A stretch of DNA of 64,000 bases, taken from Hydrogenophaga sp. GTDB lineage: Bacteria > Pseudomonadota > Gammaproteobacteria > Burkholderiales > Burkholderiaceae_C. The stretch lies in NCBI RefSeq assembly GCF_030651625.1, contig NZ_JAUSCF010000006.1:1-64000 (forward strand), in the 5' to 3' direction. Position numbers and translations under genes: made by a program. Of this stretch, positions 1,978 through 56,355 are shown in pieces. The notes beneath the pieces were generated by a model, which was given only the letters and a program-made list of their open reading frames with translations, was not told the DNA's origin and did no database searches. How positions within the stretch are numbered: position 1 is the stretch's first letter; each line of letters begins with the position of its first letter.

Positions 1978-3750
1978 TCAGTGCAGGCGCTCGGGCCGCA
2001 GGTTCTCCGCAGACCATTCGCTCAGGAACTGCATCACCATGCGCCGCAACTCACGGGCGTTCAGCCGTGCACCTTCATACATCGCTTGGGGCGCCAGCGG
2101 CAGCACTCCCAGCGGCAAGCGCCACTCCCTTGCGATGTCTTCGGTGATGCCTTGGACCAGAACCTGCATGTCTTCAGGCCTGGGCTCTGGCATGTAGAGG
2201 ACCGTGAACCGGGAGAGCAAGGCGGCTGGCATGGTCTTGAGACTGTTGGCCGTGGCCCAGAAGCTCAGGCGTGTGAAGTTGCAAGTGGTCTGCAAGAAGC
2301 CGTCGTGCCAGCGCGCAGCGGTTTCTGGCTCCATCAGACCGAGCAAGACAGAGGTGACCGGCGGGCTGTTGGAGTCGGTGACCACGGCCTTGTCAATCTC
2401 GTCGAGCAGAACCAGGCCGCTGGCGGACTTGTGCTGGAGCATCAACCGCAACAAAGGCGTGGGCTCTCCGCCGGCCCACCCTCTGGAGGTTCCGGAGATC
2501 AACTTGGTGTCTGTTCGCCCACCCAGCGGGAGTGGGAGGTAAGGCAGCTTGAGGTGCTCGGCCACGCGCCGGATGAAGCGCGACTTTCCGGCACCTGGAT
2601 ACCCAACGATCAGGACGGGAGACAGACACAGCTCCTTGACCCCAAAAAAACTCCTTGCCCGCAGCATGCTGCCCAGCTCTCCCACCACATTGGTGGCCCA
2701 GGGAAATTCTTTGGCCAGGGCTGTCAGAACGGCATCCACCTCCCGGTGCGATGGCATCACGGCAACCGGCTGCGGGATCAGCAGTGGCTTGTAGGTCCGG
2801 ATCGTCTCGGCATCCTCCTTGTTTGAGGCTGCGGGGATGGGGCCGCGCACGACCAGCAGGGTTCCGGCCTTTGACTCCCCGGTAGGAGGGTCAGGCTCAG
2901 CGAGGATCGCTGCCGAGACACGGTAGATCTCGCTTTGTTCGCTGGTGACGGTTTGATCCACGAAAGCAATCCCGCTGATATGCAGCGCTAGCACGCGTTG
3001 CAGGCTGCCGTCCCAGAAGCATTCGTGATCCTTGGCTTCGCGGGTGGAAGCCAGTTGCTTCGCAACCTCCAGCCACAGACCTTGGCACACCCCCAGAAAA
3101 TAGTCCTTACGCTCCTTGGGCTGGAAAAATGATCGCTTCTGTTCGCTTTCATGTACGGAAAGGATCGCGATGGAGCGAAGAACCGCCAGGCAGTTGGCGC
3201 TGTCCCAGGTCTTGAGCCGATCGTCCCGGACGGCTTTGATGGCTGTATTTACGCAGCTGTTCAACGACCCTGTCGTGCTGACTGGCAAGCGTAATGGGCG
3301 GTCAGAGTCATCTGTGCTGGGGCGCAGCCGCTGCAGCTTGAGAAACGGCAACCCATCAAAGTGAACATCCCGCACTGTCCAAGCTTGACGGGAAAGGTGC
3401 AGCCCCTCCTGGGCAAGTTGCTCCAACGCCCGGTGCTCATGGAGAACGGCCGAGTCGACTGATGAGGTCATGGCATCGAGCCACTCCACCCGAAAGGCGC
3501 TGGCGCTCTCGTCATCAAGCTGGAGGTCGTCCAGGGCGTACAGAACCTCGATAGCCAGAGCGGTCCGTTCCGCTGAAAAGTCTGGAGCTTCCAGCGCGCG
3601 CCGCACCAGGCGGTGAAATTGGCGGAAGCGTTGCGGGGTGTCCTCGACGCCCGTTGCCAGTCGCAGCAAAGGGTGCATGAAGGCATGCACGCCGCGAAGC
3701 TTATTTGAGGAACTGCGACCGCTACTGCGGTCATTACTTGATGCAACCAT
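1978..3750 (-). CDS. Lon-like AAA+ ATPase without protease domain
   Basis: A 590-residue protein. Residues 1-340 are a domain I do not recognise. Residues about 345-575 are an AAA+ module with Walker A GYPGAGKS (383-390), Walker B LVLLDE (446-451), sensor 1 ATANS (499-503), an arginine finger in LLSRF (511-515) and an ARELRR sensor-2-like motif (565-570). The order DEID, short loop, F-x-ATANS, LLSRF matches the AAA+ part of Lon. The protein ends there, so no Ser-Lys peptidase domain follows. GGAG precedes the ATG by ten bases. It leads a probable two-gene unit with the HAD gene. It may be a remodelling or defence ATPase; the role is not established. Confidence 0.8.
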   Translation of the reverse strand: MVASSNDRSSGRSSSNKLRGVHAFMHPLLRLATGVEDTPQRFRQFHRLVRRALEAPDFSAERTALAIEVLYALDDLQLDDESASAFRVEWLDAMTSSVDSAVLHEHRALEQLAQEGLHLSRQAWTVRDVHFDGLPFLKLQRLRPSTDDSDRPLRLPVSTTGSLNSCVNTAIKAVRDDRLKTWDSANCLAVLRSIAILSVHESEQKRSFFQPKERKDYFLGVCQGLWLEVAKQLASTREAKDHECFWDGSLQRVLALHISGIAFVDQTVTSEQSEIYRVSAAILAEPDPPTGESKAGTLLVVRGPIPAASNKEDAETIRTYKPLLIPQPVAVMPSHREVDAVLTALAKEFPWATNVVGELGSMLRARSFFGVKELCLSPVLIVGYPGAGKSRFIRRVAEHLKLPYLPLPLGGRTDTKLISGTSRGWAGGEPTPLLRLMLQHKSASGLVLLDEIDKAVVTDSNSPPVTSVLLGLMEPETAARWHDGFLQTTCNFTRLSFWATANSLKTMPAALLSRFTVLYMPEPRPEDMQVLVQGITEDIAREWRLPLGVLPLAPQAMYEGARLNARELRRMVMQFLSEWSAENLRPERLH

Positions 3751-4213
3751 GGTCGACTCCAGAGATGTGAAGTGATGGTTGCGGTGCAGGCCCAGCGTAG
3801 AGCTGCGCGGTCGGAGAGCAACCTCCGTAAGGCAACAAAACTGTGCCTTGCTTCAAGGCTACTACGGTCTTTTGGACCTCGCAAGTGCCTTCAAGCCGTT
3901 GTTCAGAAGAGACGAAATTGATTGCTTAGGAAAAATGGAATGTTGAGTGGCGCGTTTTCGACAAAGTGGAATGTTGAGTGGCGCGCGAGTGGAATGTGAA
4001 GCTGCAGCACGAATCTTGCAACCCAATCAATTCAACAGGTTACGGCGCTGCCGAGTTGAAGGTTGAATGGCGTTCCGCAGAAACGGCGCCCATCAGGCGT
4101 CGACAAGTCGGGCCGGATCCGGTCGACTGAGTGACGCGTCCAGGGCGCGCCAGGGGCGGGCAGCCCGATCCACCAGGGCGCTTGGCGCGCCACCCGTGCT
4201 GGCGCCCAGTTTG
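3751..4213. other. 463-base gap with short direct repeats
   Basis: No convincing gene is visible. The stretch contains two perfect copies of TGGAATGTTGAGTGGCGCG at 3936-3954 and 3967-3985, a partial copy starting at 3990 (TGGAATGTGAAG) and a variant GTTGAATGGCG near 4063-4073. Tandem terminal repeats of this kind are known from IS21-family elements, but no istA or istB remnant is present. The gap must also hold the promoter of the AAA+ gene at its left edge and the transcript end of the histidine kinase gene at its right edge. Confidence 0.5.
3936..3985. repeat. pair of 19-base direct repeats, 31-base period
   Basis: Two identical 19-mers, TGGAATGTTGAGTGGCGCG, are spaced start to start by 31 bases, about three helical turns. 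A degenerate third copy follows at 3990. They may be a decayed insertion-sequence end or binding sites for a regulator of the divergent upstream region. Confidence 0.7.
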
Positions 4214-30074: not shown

Positions 30075-30196
30075 GCTTTCAGCACCGGTCCGGGCGGCGG
30101 CGTCTGTGGACGCTGGCTGAGACTTCCACGCCCCAGGGCGAGGGCAGGGTTGCATAATCTGCCGGTCCCAACGTTCGGATGCCAACCAATACCCCC

Positions 30197-30883
30197 ATGG
30201 CGCGTTTGCCCCGACTCTCGATTCCCGGCAACCTTCACCATGTCATGCAGCGGGGGAACAACCAGCAAGCGATCGTAAAAACGGATGCCGATCGATCGGC
30301 TTTGCTGACCATGGTGGGGGAGCAGGCCCTGCACTATCGTGTGGCACTGCACGCCTATGTGCTGATGGACACCCATTTCCATTTGCTCCTGACGCCTGCG
30401 ACCCCCGGTGGGATCTCGCTGATGATGCAGGCGGTGGGGCGGCGTTATGTGCGGTATTTCAACGACCTCCACCACCGCAGTGGCACGCTCTGGGACGGCC
30501 GGTACCGGTCGACGGTGTTGCAGGCCGAGCGTCACCTGATCGCCCACATGTGTTTTCTGGACCTCATGCCGGTGCGTGCTGGTGTGACTGCGCAGCCCCA
30601 CCTTTACCCGTGGTCCAGCCATTGCCACTATGTCGGGCAGTTGACCGACAAGCGATTGGTACCGCATCCGGTCTACTGGTCGCTCGGCAACACGCCTTTT
30701 GCGCGAGAGGCTGCTTACGCAGACCGGGTGCGTGAAGGCTTGACCGATGCGCAAGCTGTTGAAATCGCATCCTCGGTCAACCATGGCTGGGCCCTGGGTG
30801 AACCGGATTTCATCGACGGCCTCCAGCAGCAGACCCAAAGGCGCGTCAGCAAAGCGCGTCCAGGCCGTCCCCCCCTTCGGTAG
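30197..30883 (+). CDS. REP-associated tyrosine transposase (RAYT)
   Basis: A single-copy HUH-type DNA nuclease related to IS200/IS605 transposases. Visible features are the N-terminus MARLPRLSIPGNLHHVMQRG, the HUH motif in MDTHFHLLL, the candidate tyrosine region GRRYVRYFN and SGTLWDGRYRS. RAYTs are thought to mobilise short REP palindromes and usually lack terminal repeats of their own. An in-frame ATG at 30179 would add six residues. It interrupts the space between the MFS gene and gltB, and repeat-like sequence follows at 30938-31008. Confidence 0.92.
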   Translation: MARLPRLSIPGNLHHVMQRGNNQQAIVKTDADRSALLTMVGEQALHYRVALHAYVLMDTHFHLLLTPATPGGISLMMQAVGRRYVRYFNDLHHRSGTLWDGRYRSTVLQAERHLIAHMCFLDLMPVRAGVTAQPHLYPWSSHCHYVGQLTDKRLVPHPVYWSLGNTPFAREAAYADRVREGLTDAQAVEIASSVNHGWALGEPDFIDGLQQQTQRRVSKARPGRPPLR

Positions 30884-53704: not shown

Positions 53705-54214
53705 ATGATTGATCTGGGCATCTCCAAACTCGCCCTCATTGGTGTGGTGGCGCTCATTGTCATCGGGCCAGAGAAGCTGCCCCGGGTGGCACGGACCGTG
53801 GGAGCCCTGCTGGGCAAGGCCCAACGCTATGTGGCTGACGTGAAGTCCGAAGTGAGTCGGTCGATGGAGCTGGAAGAGCTCAAGAAGATGAAGGACTCGG
53901 TGGAAAGCGCTGCCCGGGATGTGGAGTCTTCGGTCCAGAGCGGGGCGAGTGACTTTGAAAAATCCTGGTCAGAGGCCACCGCAGGCCTCGAGGGCGCCAA
54001 TGCCGGCTATGACCAGAACAATCACCAGGATGCTCTGGGCTCCATCGGATCGCCGGTGCATCCGGTTTACAAGCACCCGAAGAAGAACTGGCGCGTGAAA
54101 CAAAAAGCCATGCCACAGTGGTACAAGGCCCGTGCCGGGGTGCGAACGCGCACCCAGTCCGGCGCGGCCCGCGTGGCGCGATTCAGGCCACGCTCCTCCT
54201 CCGTTCCCCGCTGA
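53705..54214 (+). CDS. tatB: Tat translocase subunit TatB
   Basis: A 169-residue protein starting [30 protein letters not shown], the TatB signature with the conserved Glu and GPEKLP hinge, then an amphipathic helix and a long charged tail that ends in Arg. With TatC it forms the twin-arginine signal receptor. The stop overlaps the tatC start (TGATG). Confidence 0.96.
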
Positions 54215-55017
54215 TGTCAGACCAAAAAGAAAAAGCCGACGAGCTCGCCGGCACAGAGCAGCCGTTTGTCCAGCACCTGATGGAGTTGCGCGATCGCCTG
54301 CTCTATGGCATCGCTGGATTGGGGTTGTGCATGGCGCTGCTGGCGTTCTGGCCAGGCCCGAGTGGCTTGATCGACCTCATCGCAGTGCCTATTCGGGCGC
54401 ACATGCCGCCCGACGCCAAACTGATCGCCGTGGGAGTCTTTTCGCCTTTCTTTGTGCCGCTCAAAGTGCTGGCGATGGCTGCGCTTCTGTTGTCGTTGCC
54501 ATGGTGGATGTATCAGGTCTGGGCGTTTGTTGCACCTGGCCTTTACAGCCACGAAAAGAAATTTGCCATTCCCCTGATCATTCTGGGAAGCTTGCTGGCG
54601 TACGTCGGGATCGCGTTTGTCCAGTTCTTTGTGCTGGACAAGATGTTTGGCTTCATTCAGGGATTCACGCCTTCGAGCGTGGCCGCCACACCTGACATTG
54701 CCTCCTATGTGGAAGCCATTCTGTCGCTGTACCTCGCGTTTGGACTCGCGTTTCAGGTGCCCATCGTGGTGGTGCTGCTGGTGCGGTTGAACATGGTGTC
54801 GATCCAGAAGTTGAAGGACTTTCGGGGGTACTTCATCGTGGTGGCCTTCATCATTGCGGCCGTTGTCACGCCACCTGACGTTATTTCTCAGCTGGCGCTG
54901 GCGATCCCGATGATCTTGCTTTACCAGATCGGGATCTGGGGAGCACATTGGTTCGTGAAATCTTCGGCCAAGCCGGAAGAGGACGCGGATGATGAAGCGT
55001 CTTCCACCAAAAAATGA
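54214..55017 (+). CDS. tatC: Tat translocase subunit TatC
   Basis: A 267-residue inner-membrane protein with six helices. Family motifs FVQHLMELRDRLLY at the N-terminus and YQVWAFVAPGLYSHEKKF in the first periplasmic loop are present. It recognises the RR signal peptide. Its 3' end lies 20 bases from the palindromic element at 55038-55202. Confidence 0.97.
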   Translation: MSDQKEKADELAGTEQPFVQHLMELRDRLLYGIAGLGLCMALLAFWPGPSGLIDLIAVPIRAHMPPDAKLIAVGVFSPFFVPLKVLAMAALLLSLPWWMYQVWAFVAPGLYSHEKKFAIPLIILGSLLAYVGIAFVQFFVLDKMFGFIQGFTPSSVAATPDIASYVEAILSLYLAFGLAFQVPIVVVLLVRLNMVSIQKLKDFRGYFIVVAFIIAAVVTPPDVISQLALAIPMILLYQIGIWGAHWFVKSSAKPEEDADDEASSTKK

Positions 55018-55037
55018 GCGCTCAATATCCGTCAGCG

Positions 55038-55202
55038 AGGAGCCTGCGCGGCAGAACGACATCGGCTGCAACGCATGGAGAAAAGTTCCACCTCGCCCCC
55101 GTTTTTCCGGCTGTGGCTGCGGCCACAGTCCTCAAAATCGGCGCCAAACTGGGCTCTTTTCCCACGCCTTTCGCTTCGATGCCTTCTGCCGCGCAGGCTC
55201 CT
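55038..55202. mobile_element. 165-base palindromic MITE-like element
   Basis: AGGAGCCTGCGCGGCAGA at 55038-55055 is a perfect 18-base inverse of 55185-55202. Beyond these ends the two halves stay complementary, with some mismatches, up to a central CTGTGGC-TGCG-GCCACAG hairpin at about 55112-55129, so the whole element can fold into one long hairpin. It is flanked by AGCG on both sides (55034-55037 and 55203-55206), a likely 4-base target duplication. It encodes no protein. Its right end supplies the first two bases of the complement of the DegS-like stop codon. Confidence 0.7.
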
Positions 55203-56355
55203 AGCGTGGTGGTTGCCGCGACGGTGCATTTCGCCGACCGGGCGTGATCTGAAGCACGCTCTTACCCTCCCGGCGCATGATCTCAAGTTCAGCAGGTGTG
55301 CCAGGTGGCAAGGCAGCCACCGCCGAGAGCAACTGGGCCACGCTTCGGACTTCCTGATTCGCGACACGGGTGATCACATCGCCCGGCTTGAGGCCCGCCT
55401 GGGCTGCAGGACCGTTCTGAAGGACGCCGGTGATGATGACCCCGGCTCCTTGCTGGATGCCAAAACTCTCGGCCAATTCCGGGCTCAGGTCTTGCGGTTC
55501 AACGCCGATCCACCCACGGGTGACTTGCCCATCCTTCACGATCGAGTCCAGTACGCTGCGCGCGGTGGAGGTGGGAATGGCAAACCCGATGCCCATGGAC
55601 CCACCCGAACGGGAGTAGATCGCCGTGTTGATGCCCATCAGGTGCCCATTGATGTCGACCAGTGCACCGCCTGAATTTCCAGGATTGATCGCCGCATCGG
55701 TTTGAATGAAGTTTTCGAACGTGTTGATGCCGAGCTGGGTGCGGCCCAGCGCGCTGACGATACCGCTGGTGACGGTTTGCCCAACGCCAAACGGGTTTCC
55801 AATGGCGAGCACCTGATCCCCGATTTCCAGCGCATCGGAGTTGCCCAACGTGATCACGGGAAGGTCCGTCAGTTCTACCTTGAGGATGGCGAGATCGGTT
55901 TCCGGGTCGGTTCCGATGACTTGAGCCACGCCTTTTCTTCCATCGTTGAGAAAGACTTCGATTTCATCGGCCTCCTCGATCACGTGGTTGTTGGTGAGGA
56001 TGTAACCCGCAGGGCTGACGATCACGCCAGAACCCAGGCCTGTCTGCGCTTGTGAGCGGTCCTGCTCTCCAAAAAAGAAGCGAAACCAGGGATCGGCGCT
56101 TTGCGGCGTATTGACGGGCGCCTTGCTGGTGTTGATGCTCACCACCGCAGGGGACGCGTTGCGGGCAGCTGCACGAAAGCTGGTCGAACCATTCGATTCC
56201 GGGTTGCCCGATGCAGGCGGCGCCTCGAACACGGGAACGATCGACGTGGTCGATGGGCGTCGATCCAGCCATTCGGGCTTCAATGAAGCAACAACAAAAA
56301 AGACCGCCAGAAGCACAGTCACGGATTGGGCAAATACCAGCCAGAGTCTTTTCAT
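55201..56355 (-). CDS. DegS-like trypsin-type serine protease
   Basis: A 384-residue HtrA-family protease with an N-terminal membrane anchor (about 5-25), a protease domain with the triad His in TNNHVIEEA, Asp in ETDLAIL and Ser in GNSGGAL, and one C-terminal PDZ domain. A single PDZ and a membrane anchor fit DegS rather than DegP. It may cleave an anti-sigma factor or act as a general periplasmic protease; no sigma gene is nearby. Its TAG stop codon lies across the junction with the palindromic element. Confidence 0.94.
   Translation of the reverse strand: MKRLWLVFAQSVTVLLAVFFVVASLKPEWLDRRPSTTSIVPVFEAPPASGNPESNGSTSFRAAARNASPAVVSINTSKAPVNTPQSADPWFRFFFGEQDRSQAQTGLGSGVIVSPAGYILTNNHVIEEADEIEVFLNDGRKGVAQVIGTDPETDLAILKVELTDLPVITLGNSDALEIGDQVLAIGNPFGVGQTVTSGIVSALGRTQLGINTFENFIQTDAAINPGNSGGALVDINGHLMGINTAIYSRSGGSMGIGFAIPTSTARSVLDSIVKDGQVTRGWIGVEPQDLSPELAESFGIQQGAGVIITGVLQNGPAAQAGLKPGDVITRVANQEVRSVAQLLSAVAALPPGTPAELEIMRREGKSVLQITPGRRNAPSRQPPR

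Follow-up and report, generated by a model that had tools for sequence, protein, structure and literature searches.

A 163-bp MITE at the tatC–htrA locus of Hydrogenophaga: its copies, its target site and the upkeep of its palindrome

In Hydrogenophaga sp., the convergent genes tatC (plus strand) and htrA/degS-like (minus strand) have between them a long imperfect palindrome that reaches into the stop codon of the protease gene. What is this sequence, how did it come to lie in a stop codon, and what keeps its two halves complementary? It was first noticed in a 64,000-nucleotide stretch of DNA (the whole of which we call ‘the window’), and was taken from the letters alone to be a MITE-like insertion between two convergent genes. 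Both parts of that description hold. The palindrome is a transposable element, and it has the features expected of a MITE: it is short and carries no transposase of its own, it has 18-bp terminal inverted repeats (TIRs), it is flanked by a target-site duplication, and it occurs in multiple dispersed copies. Below, genomes are given G numbers (G000 is the window's own), loci L numbers and contigs C numbers.

The element and its copies in the genus

Table 1. Features of the tatC–htrA locus (window coordinates)
Feature	Position	Strand	Remarks
Element, 163 bp, subfamily A	55039..55201	.	Aligned copies; nested empty site in Massilia
Left TIR, GGAGCCTGCGCGGCAGAA	55039..55056	+	
Right TIR, perfect complement of left	55184..55201	-	
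Central hairpin of long imperfect palindrome	55109..55130 (approx.)	.	CTAG position in Massilia aquatica copies
Left target-duplication copy, GA at this locus	55037..55038	+	
Right target-duplication copy, TA	55202..55203	+	With base 55201, forms the htrA TAG stop (minus strand)
htrA/degS-like serine protease gene, 384 aa	55201..56355	-	Trypsin_2 and PDZ domains
tatC, convergent neighbour	54214..55017	+	TatC, E 6e-59; start is an ATG chosen by us within a longer ORF listed from 54118

The 18-nt ends are perfectly complementary, as predicted, and the longer inverted arms in which they lie (55035–55056 and 55184–55205, 22 nt each) are 95% complementary. The element was originally placed at 55034–55206, as 165 bp; the boundaries in Table 1 are better, and leave as flanks TA on the right and GA, an altered TA, on the left. 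The TAG stop of the htrA/degS-like gene is formed at the element junction, its G being the terminal base of the element. At 163 bp the element is too short to encode a transposase, and the several predicted ORFs listed across it extend into its neighbours. Folded as DNA, it forms a full-length hairpin with a minimum free energy of -51.8 kcal/mol, versus -32.8 ± 3.2 for 200 dinucleotide shuffles (z -5.9), none of which is as stable. This bears out the long-range complementarity that had been noticed between the halves; the central hairpin that had been noticed is present as well.

The window's own genome (4.27 Mb in 39 contigs) matches the element in 19 places, over 138–173 bp and with 90–100% identity. 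Contig ends truncate six of the 19, three on each side of the element, and some of these could therefore be opposite ends of a single copy. A fair count for this type, which we call subfamily A, is therefore 16–19 copies, and with at least 16 the palindrome is no single-copy sequence. A sister subfamily, B, is represented by two additional copies (C24:16549 and C18:29032), whose ends are of this kind but whose interior is different. Seven contig ends (on C7, C18, C22, C23, C31, C36 and C37) fall within the element or at most two bases away, so this repeat limits the assembly.

Among 40 sampled genomes, five including its own matched the element, all of them in the same genus, of which 24 genomes were searched. 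Among the matches listed from an extended search of 60 genus genomes is one more, a partial one in G069. The lengths of elements with these ends vary from 44 to 163 bp in G005 and G007. Miniature forms (44 and about 35 bp), at L119 and L120 (G007) and L358 (G253), consist of little beyond the two ends, and are likely internal deletions. In the other genus genomes (60 searched), tatC and htrA match separately and the element is absent from the locus among the matches listed, contrary to what would be seen if the 165 bases were conserved here across distant genera.

Target site, empty sites and stop codons

To define the target, we assembled a set of 90 copies for which both flanks are available: the window's own genome contributed 14, G005 and G007 together 15, and loci in named genomes 61. 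Up to four mismatches were allowed in each 18-nt end, and in 36 copies the ends are imperfect. The set includes one artefact row, in which the outer left end of a nested pair of copies (L246, below) is paired with the inner right end. Most copies fit the pattern C(T/C)A-GGAGCC...GGCTCC-(T/C)(A/G)G, where hyphens mark the edges of the element. On the left of GGAGCC the three positions are C in 81, T/C in 81 and A in 78 of the 90 copies; on the right of GGCTCC they are T/C in 87, A/G in 88 and G in 75. The adjoining dinucleotide is TA (45/90) or CA (28/90) on the left, and TA (55/90), CA (14/90) or TG (13/90) on the right. Left and right dinucleotides are identical in 43 copies, versus a mean of 32.6 after random re-pairing, and 14 of 5000 re-pairings were as high.

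The flanks and the empty sites show that the target is CTAG, and that the duplicated bases are TA (or CTAG, with an element of 161 bp). The existence of CA, TG and GA flanks means that TA is not an absolute rule, or that the duplications have decayed. The original prediction named a different duplication, AGCG, and this does occur on both sides of the window copy. At the 165-bp boundaries, however, a 4-bp repeat is present in only one of the 90 copies, the window copy itself, and the match is coincidental. The left flank of this copy is GA, where TA is commonest, and AGCG arises because TA changed to GA beside GC.

Three observations touch on the flanks. On the left TA is often CA (CTAGG to CCAGG) and on the right CA or TG, which recalls the bias of very-short-patch repair. 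In Dokdonella, six copies (L266, L268, L270, L294, L277 and L280) lie inside one other repeat, about ACTTGTTCAGANNTTCCC(T/C)AGG, possibly an insertion hotspot. And in Pelomonas, L279 contains at 3535–3794 a 260-bp element with similar ends (three mismatches each) and the flanks CTA and TAG.

When the target is a perfect CTAG, a 2-bp duplication of TA and a 4-bp duplication of CTAG are indistinguishable. The element might then be an IS5-type MITE of 161 bp (GAGCC...GGCTC) that duplicates CTAG, as does MITEPsy1 of Pseudomonas syringae, and identical 4-mers do adjoin the 161-bp boundary in 36 of the 90 copies (31 CTAG, 5 CCAG). We consider this unlikely, since the outermost G and C do not vary beside flanks other than TA (CA-GG...CC-CA in L130, L115 and L111), and so behave as part of the element. 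Because the CA-flanked copies keep these two bases unchanged, we favour the 2-bp duplication.

Empty sites exist, as the original prediction had anticipated for relatives. At L246 of Massilia aquatica, one copy is nested within the central CTAG of another; once 162 bp and one TA are removed, the remaining 162 bp match the sister copy L281 without a mismatch. Sites within the genus are weaker than this one. In four of five usable comparisons the filled flanks are two bases longer: the window site versus G064 (52 bases filled, 50 empty), L129 versus G052, L129 versus G064, and L130 versus G052. In the fifth, L130 versus G064, filled and empty flanks are equal. These five comprise four of 13 comparisons (L129 twice, L130 twice) and that of the window with G064, added separately. 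The other nine of the 13 were unusable: in three the junction was uncovered (L007, L011 and L008), and six aligned too poorly (L130 in G011, L010, L013 three times, and L017).

The target also accounts for the position in a stop codon. Because the element begins with GG and ends with CC, insertion into C-TAG rebuilds TAG on either strand; such hits should be translationally neutral, as follows from the sequence. In G000, the 19 subfamily A places (12 of them assessable on both sides) give 31 flanks, and in six of these an ORF of 150 aa or more has its TAG stop. Each of the six ORFs has Pfam domains; they are htrA and ORFs with the domains ApbA, RibD_C, PF00144, PALP and FMN_bind_2. Elsewhere, the share of flanks that are stops (16 of 118) is barely above that among strand-sides of the remaining CTAG sites in those loci (22 of 213); the corresponding control in the window's own genome, 1/5, is too small. 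About a tenth of the CTAG strand-sides in the loci of other carriers being ORF stops, insertions in stop codons are common by choice of target. The landing at htrA is no one-off, and since it follows from the CTAG target it needs no special seeking of stop codons.

It had been proposed that the element landed in an old TGA stop, the gene reading CGC TGA once the element and one AGCG are removed, and that the protein was left unchanged. Landing in the stop codon and an unchanged protein both stand, and the arithmetic is correct. The former stop, however, was most likely TAG, to judge by the CTAG target that the flanks point to. G064, the nearest genome with an empty site, reads CGT TAA there instead of CGCTGA. 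At two of the stop-codon sites, the stops of the nearest relatives are TAA (htrA) and TGA (the RibD_C gene, L010), and TAG at neither, which is a point against our explanation.

Distribution, interiors and upkeep of the palindrome

Named genomes were scanned with the pattern CCTGCGCGGCAGAA N110-140 TTCTGCCGCGCAGG, which fixes 14 inner bp at both ends and restricts overall length to 146–176. It found 58 loci (two of them, L247 and L269, with the same flanks): 24 in a Dokdonella MAG, nine in a Thermoanaerobaculum MAG, six in a gammaproteobacterial MAG, six in Massilia, four in Wenzhouxiangella, three in a Burkholderiaceae MAG, two in Noviherbaspirillum, and one each in Lysobacterales, Pseudofulvimonas, Hydrogenophaga and Pelomonas. 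Several regularities are not imposed by the pattern: the outer GGAG (50/58) and CTCC (48/58), the CTA and TAG flanks, and the clustering of lengths at 161–163 (52/58). The carriers are scattered over beta- and gammaproteobacteria and a MAG whose label, Thermoanaerobaculum, would place it in the Acidobacteriota. Among 399 sampled genomes of the window's order, two, its own included, contain the exact 18-mer. The distribution is thus patchy and in bursts. Viral contigs gave no exact match to the 18-mer, and plasmids gave none to one query element each of subfamilies A, B, C and D.

The interiors of 26 elements of our choosing fall into about six groups. Group A comprises elements from the window's own genome and Massilia; B, from its own genome, G007, Noviherbaspirillum and the Burkholderiaceae MAG; C, from G007, Hydrogenophaga and Pseudofulvimonas; and D, from Dokdonella, Wenzhouxiangella and Lysobacterales. 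The fifth and sixth groups are those of Pelomonas and Thermoanaerobaculum. Groups A–D may be old relatives, because some pairs between A, B and C are 62–64% identical and, by eye, A to D have some subterminal bases in common. With the 20-bp ends excluded, self-complementarity of the interior exceeds that of 60 dinucleotide shuffles in 22 of the 26 (z 2.4 or more). Three short forms (82–99 bp) and one Thermoanaerobaculum copy are the exceptions.

How do the interiors remain palindromic as they change? In an alignment of D-type elements (35 sequences, 34 distinct), 98.0% of cells are paired, and changes on both sides occur in 11 of 50 pairs versus 4.9 when shuffled and 1–7 when slid. In the A-type alignment (18 sequences, 15 distinct), changes on both sides occur in five of 54 pairs versus 2.3 when shuffled (8/500 as high) and 0–2 when slid; further pair types (A2) do not exceed the shuffles (365/500 as high). 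Both structures were derived from these same alignments, which favours them on cells paired. In one copy, L011, a 20-bp tract of the left arm reproduces exactly the right arm read in reverse complement; in the 11 other aligned copies of the same genome such runs reach at most nine. We read this tract as a single event that copied the other arm, the one clear case that we have. Substitutions at arm mismatches go toward the other arm in 8/20 (A) and 44/103 (D), little above one third, in counts that include inherited changes repeatedly.

Template switching at quasipalindromes has been reported in Escherichia coli, according to part of the text of PMC7202029, and has been proposed, in a portion of PMC8794818, to create and maintain RNA hairpins. 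Our data suggest that template switching helps to keep the palindrome here; selection on the hairpin is another possible cause.

The putative mobilizing enzyme and comparison with known elements

The explanation that we hold with good confidence is that of a non-autonomous, 163-bp MITE that depends for its movement on a DDE-type transposase acting in trans, inserts at TA in CTAG, hits stop codons neutrally, and has a palindrome copied from arm to arm. A putative DDE-type transposase, of IS630/Tc1 or IS5 type to judge by the target habit, would recognize ends of ~18–20 bp and insert the element at TA within CTAG, duplicating TA. Insertion into a C-TAG stop would rebuild TAG on either strand and leave translation unharmed. 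The interior would then drift, while length (~162 bp) and self-complementarity persist, one arm being copied onto the other, at least partly, by template switching in the hairpin, a role that we infer to be general. Mobilization in trans was part of the original prediction, and we agree, inasmuch as the 163-bp element has no transposase.

A full IS with the same 18-base ends, which had been suggested as something to look for, was not found in the window's own genome, in Dokdonella or at the 58 named loci. In the first, no inverted pair of ends occurs at IS spacing with up to three mismatches; in Dokdonella, with one mismatch allowed, ends either pair at about 162 bp or are single, with no near partner; and at the 58 loci, pairs spaced at 0.4–5 kb are neighbouring copies or weak ends (3–4 mismatches), with no transposase recognized. 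MITEs that share their ends with an autonomous IS are often known, but not always, and so shared ends are not obligatory for a MITE.

Several candidates were rejected. What lies inside a 2.3-kb pair of ends in G007 (L109) is a transporter of the AI-2E family and no transposase; the ORFs within a 2.2-kb pair in L284 (three mismatches each) include no transposase recognized by eye; and in L291 a 459-bp pair (four mismatches each) falls inside one long ORF, which we take to be that of aconitase. A single end at C22:75944 has no partner, and no transposase was recognized there by eye. Derivation from IS630/Tc1 agrees with the TA duplication and the CTAG preference; a cognate DDE_3 transposase was not found. 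Genes of the IS630-type DDE_3 family (PF13358) occur in five of 13 carrier genomes and are absent from G000, and ends near them do not match, so an IS630 partner was rejected.

A REPIN, formed by two inverted REPs (GGAG plus the small palindrome CTGCGCGGCAG) and mobilized by a RAYT (TnpA-REP, a Y1 HUH enzyme), would have the GGAG at its foot, a small palindrome in each end and a full-length hairpin, as this element has. A single Y1_Tnp gene is present in each of the first five carrier genomes, and that of G000 lies within the window. Presence of the two does not coincide, however: the Y1 gene occurs in 51 of 60 genus genomes, the element in five of 24 (its own included) plus G069, and four of 13 further carriers have no Y1_Tnp (Pseudofulvimonas G089, G086, G088 and G095; some are MAGs, maybe incomplete). 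The 33 Y1 loci lack a convincing element end, the best being a single end with 3/18 mismatches (L348), and one Y1 locus each in Dokdonella and G091 carries another repeat, GCCGAGCTTGCTCGGC. The duplication at insertion also speaks against a RAYT, as HUH insertion is not known to give a 2-bp duplication. On these grounds the REPIN explanation is largely refuted and very improbable.

The RAYT-like Y1_Tnp gene of the window (30179–30883, plus strand, 234 aa) is single-copy and lies about 24 kb from tatC–htrA. Because its distance from these genes is similar in several genus genomes (G064, G075), it looks vertically inherited. The Y1_Tnp genes at L332 (the gammaproteobacterial MAG) and L337 (Dokdonella) stand among copies of that different repeat, GCCGAGCTTGCTCGGC.

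That the palindrome is an immobile RNA or terminator hairpin conserved by selection at gene ends, for which its strong hairpin, covarying pairs and several copies at most 90 bp from an ORF end could be cited, is barely credible given copies at unrelated loci, empty sites in relatives, no Rfam match to the element at E up to 1 and, already contradicting it, one copy inserted in another.

The favoured trans-mobilized MITE has counterparts in other bacteria. Passages of PMC2229807 and PMC10969869 describe ERIC/IRU (RU-1) of enterobacteria, a mostly intergenic repeat of 127 bp with TA termini and target duplication; those of PMC2229807 also describe Correia/NEMIS of Neisseria (MITEs of 107 and 155 bp with 24-bp TIRs and TA termini and target duplication) and RUP of Streptococcus pneumoniae (107 bp, TA targets, thought to be mobilized in trans). 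Autonomous IS630, from Shigella, has the TA of CTAG as its target and duplicates that dinucleotide (PMC2170065, in part). MITEPsy1, as parts of PMC3189936 present it, is a 100-nt element with 18-nt TIRs (GGAAGGTCTG) that inserts at CTAG with a 4-bp duplication, has been shown to move, and probably derives from an IS (ISPsy2).

Compared at the level of these descriptions, ERIC has the TA duplication in common with our element, but its TIR is 7 bp versus 18 bp and its length and hosts are different; Correia/NEMIS is likewise a MITE with TA target duplication. The ends and interior of Correia/NEMIS probably differ from those of our element. RUP has ends in common with IS630-Spn1 of its own genome, whereas no partner was found here. 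IS630 has an equal target habit but is autonomous, and its type of catalytic domain is absent from G000. MITEPsy1 comes close in target habit and has TIRs of 18 nt, and differs in length, ends and the 4-bp duplication.

No text match to the end sequence GAGCCTGCGCGGCAG was found in the literature. Matches listed for a MITE of Comamonadaceae concerned arthropod mites or were unrelated, and Polaromonas with MITE gave one review. A Polaromonas MITE was reportedly described by Mattes in 2008, and the element may possibly be related to it. We regard the element as a new MITE family resembling ERIC, Correia and RUP, with ends of its own, a CTAG target, the repair of stop codons as a side effect, and an interior that varies under a lasting fold; no earlier description was found in a search of mostly open literature.

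More tentatively, the elements might form a single superfamily across phyla, in which ends of ~20 bp, a length of ~162 bp and self-complementarity are kept as interiors turn over, with a template-switched palindrome, a single transposase and harmless insertions at CTAG stops. We find this possible, and on balance somewhat doubtful. If one transposase does serve hosts of two phyla, finding that transposase would explain the patchy bursts. The family also offers many natural replicates for the question of how long imperfect palindromes are kept while the sequence of a MITE changes, a question that can be tested because arm copying leaves visible tracts. And it supplies a simple rule by which a selfish element can hit gene ends free of cost: a CTAG target, together with GG and CC edges, rebuilds TAG stops.
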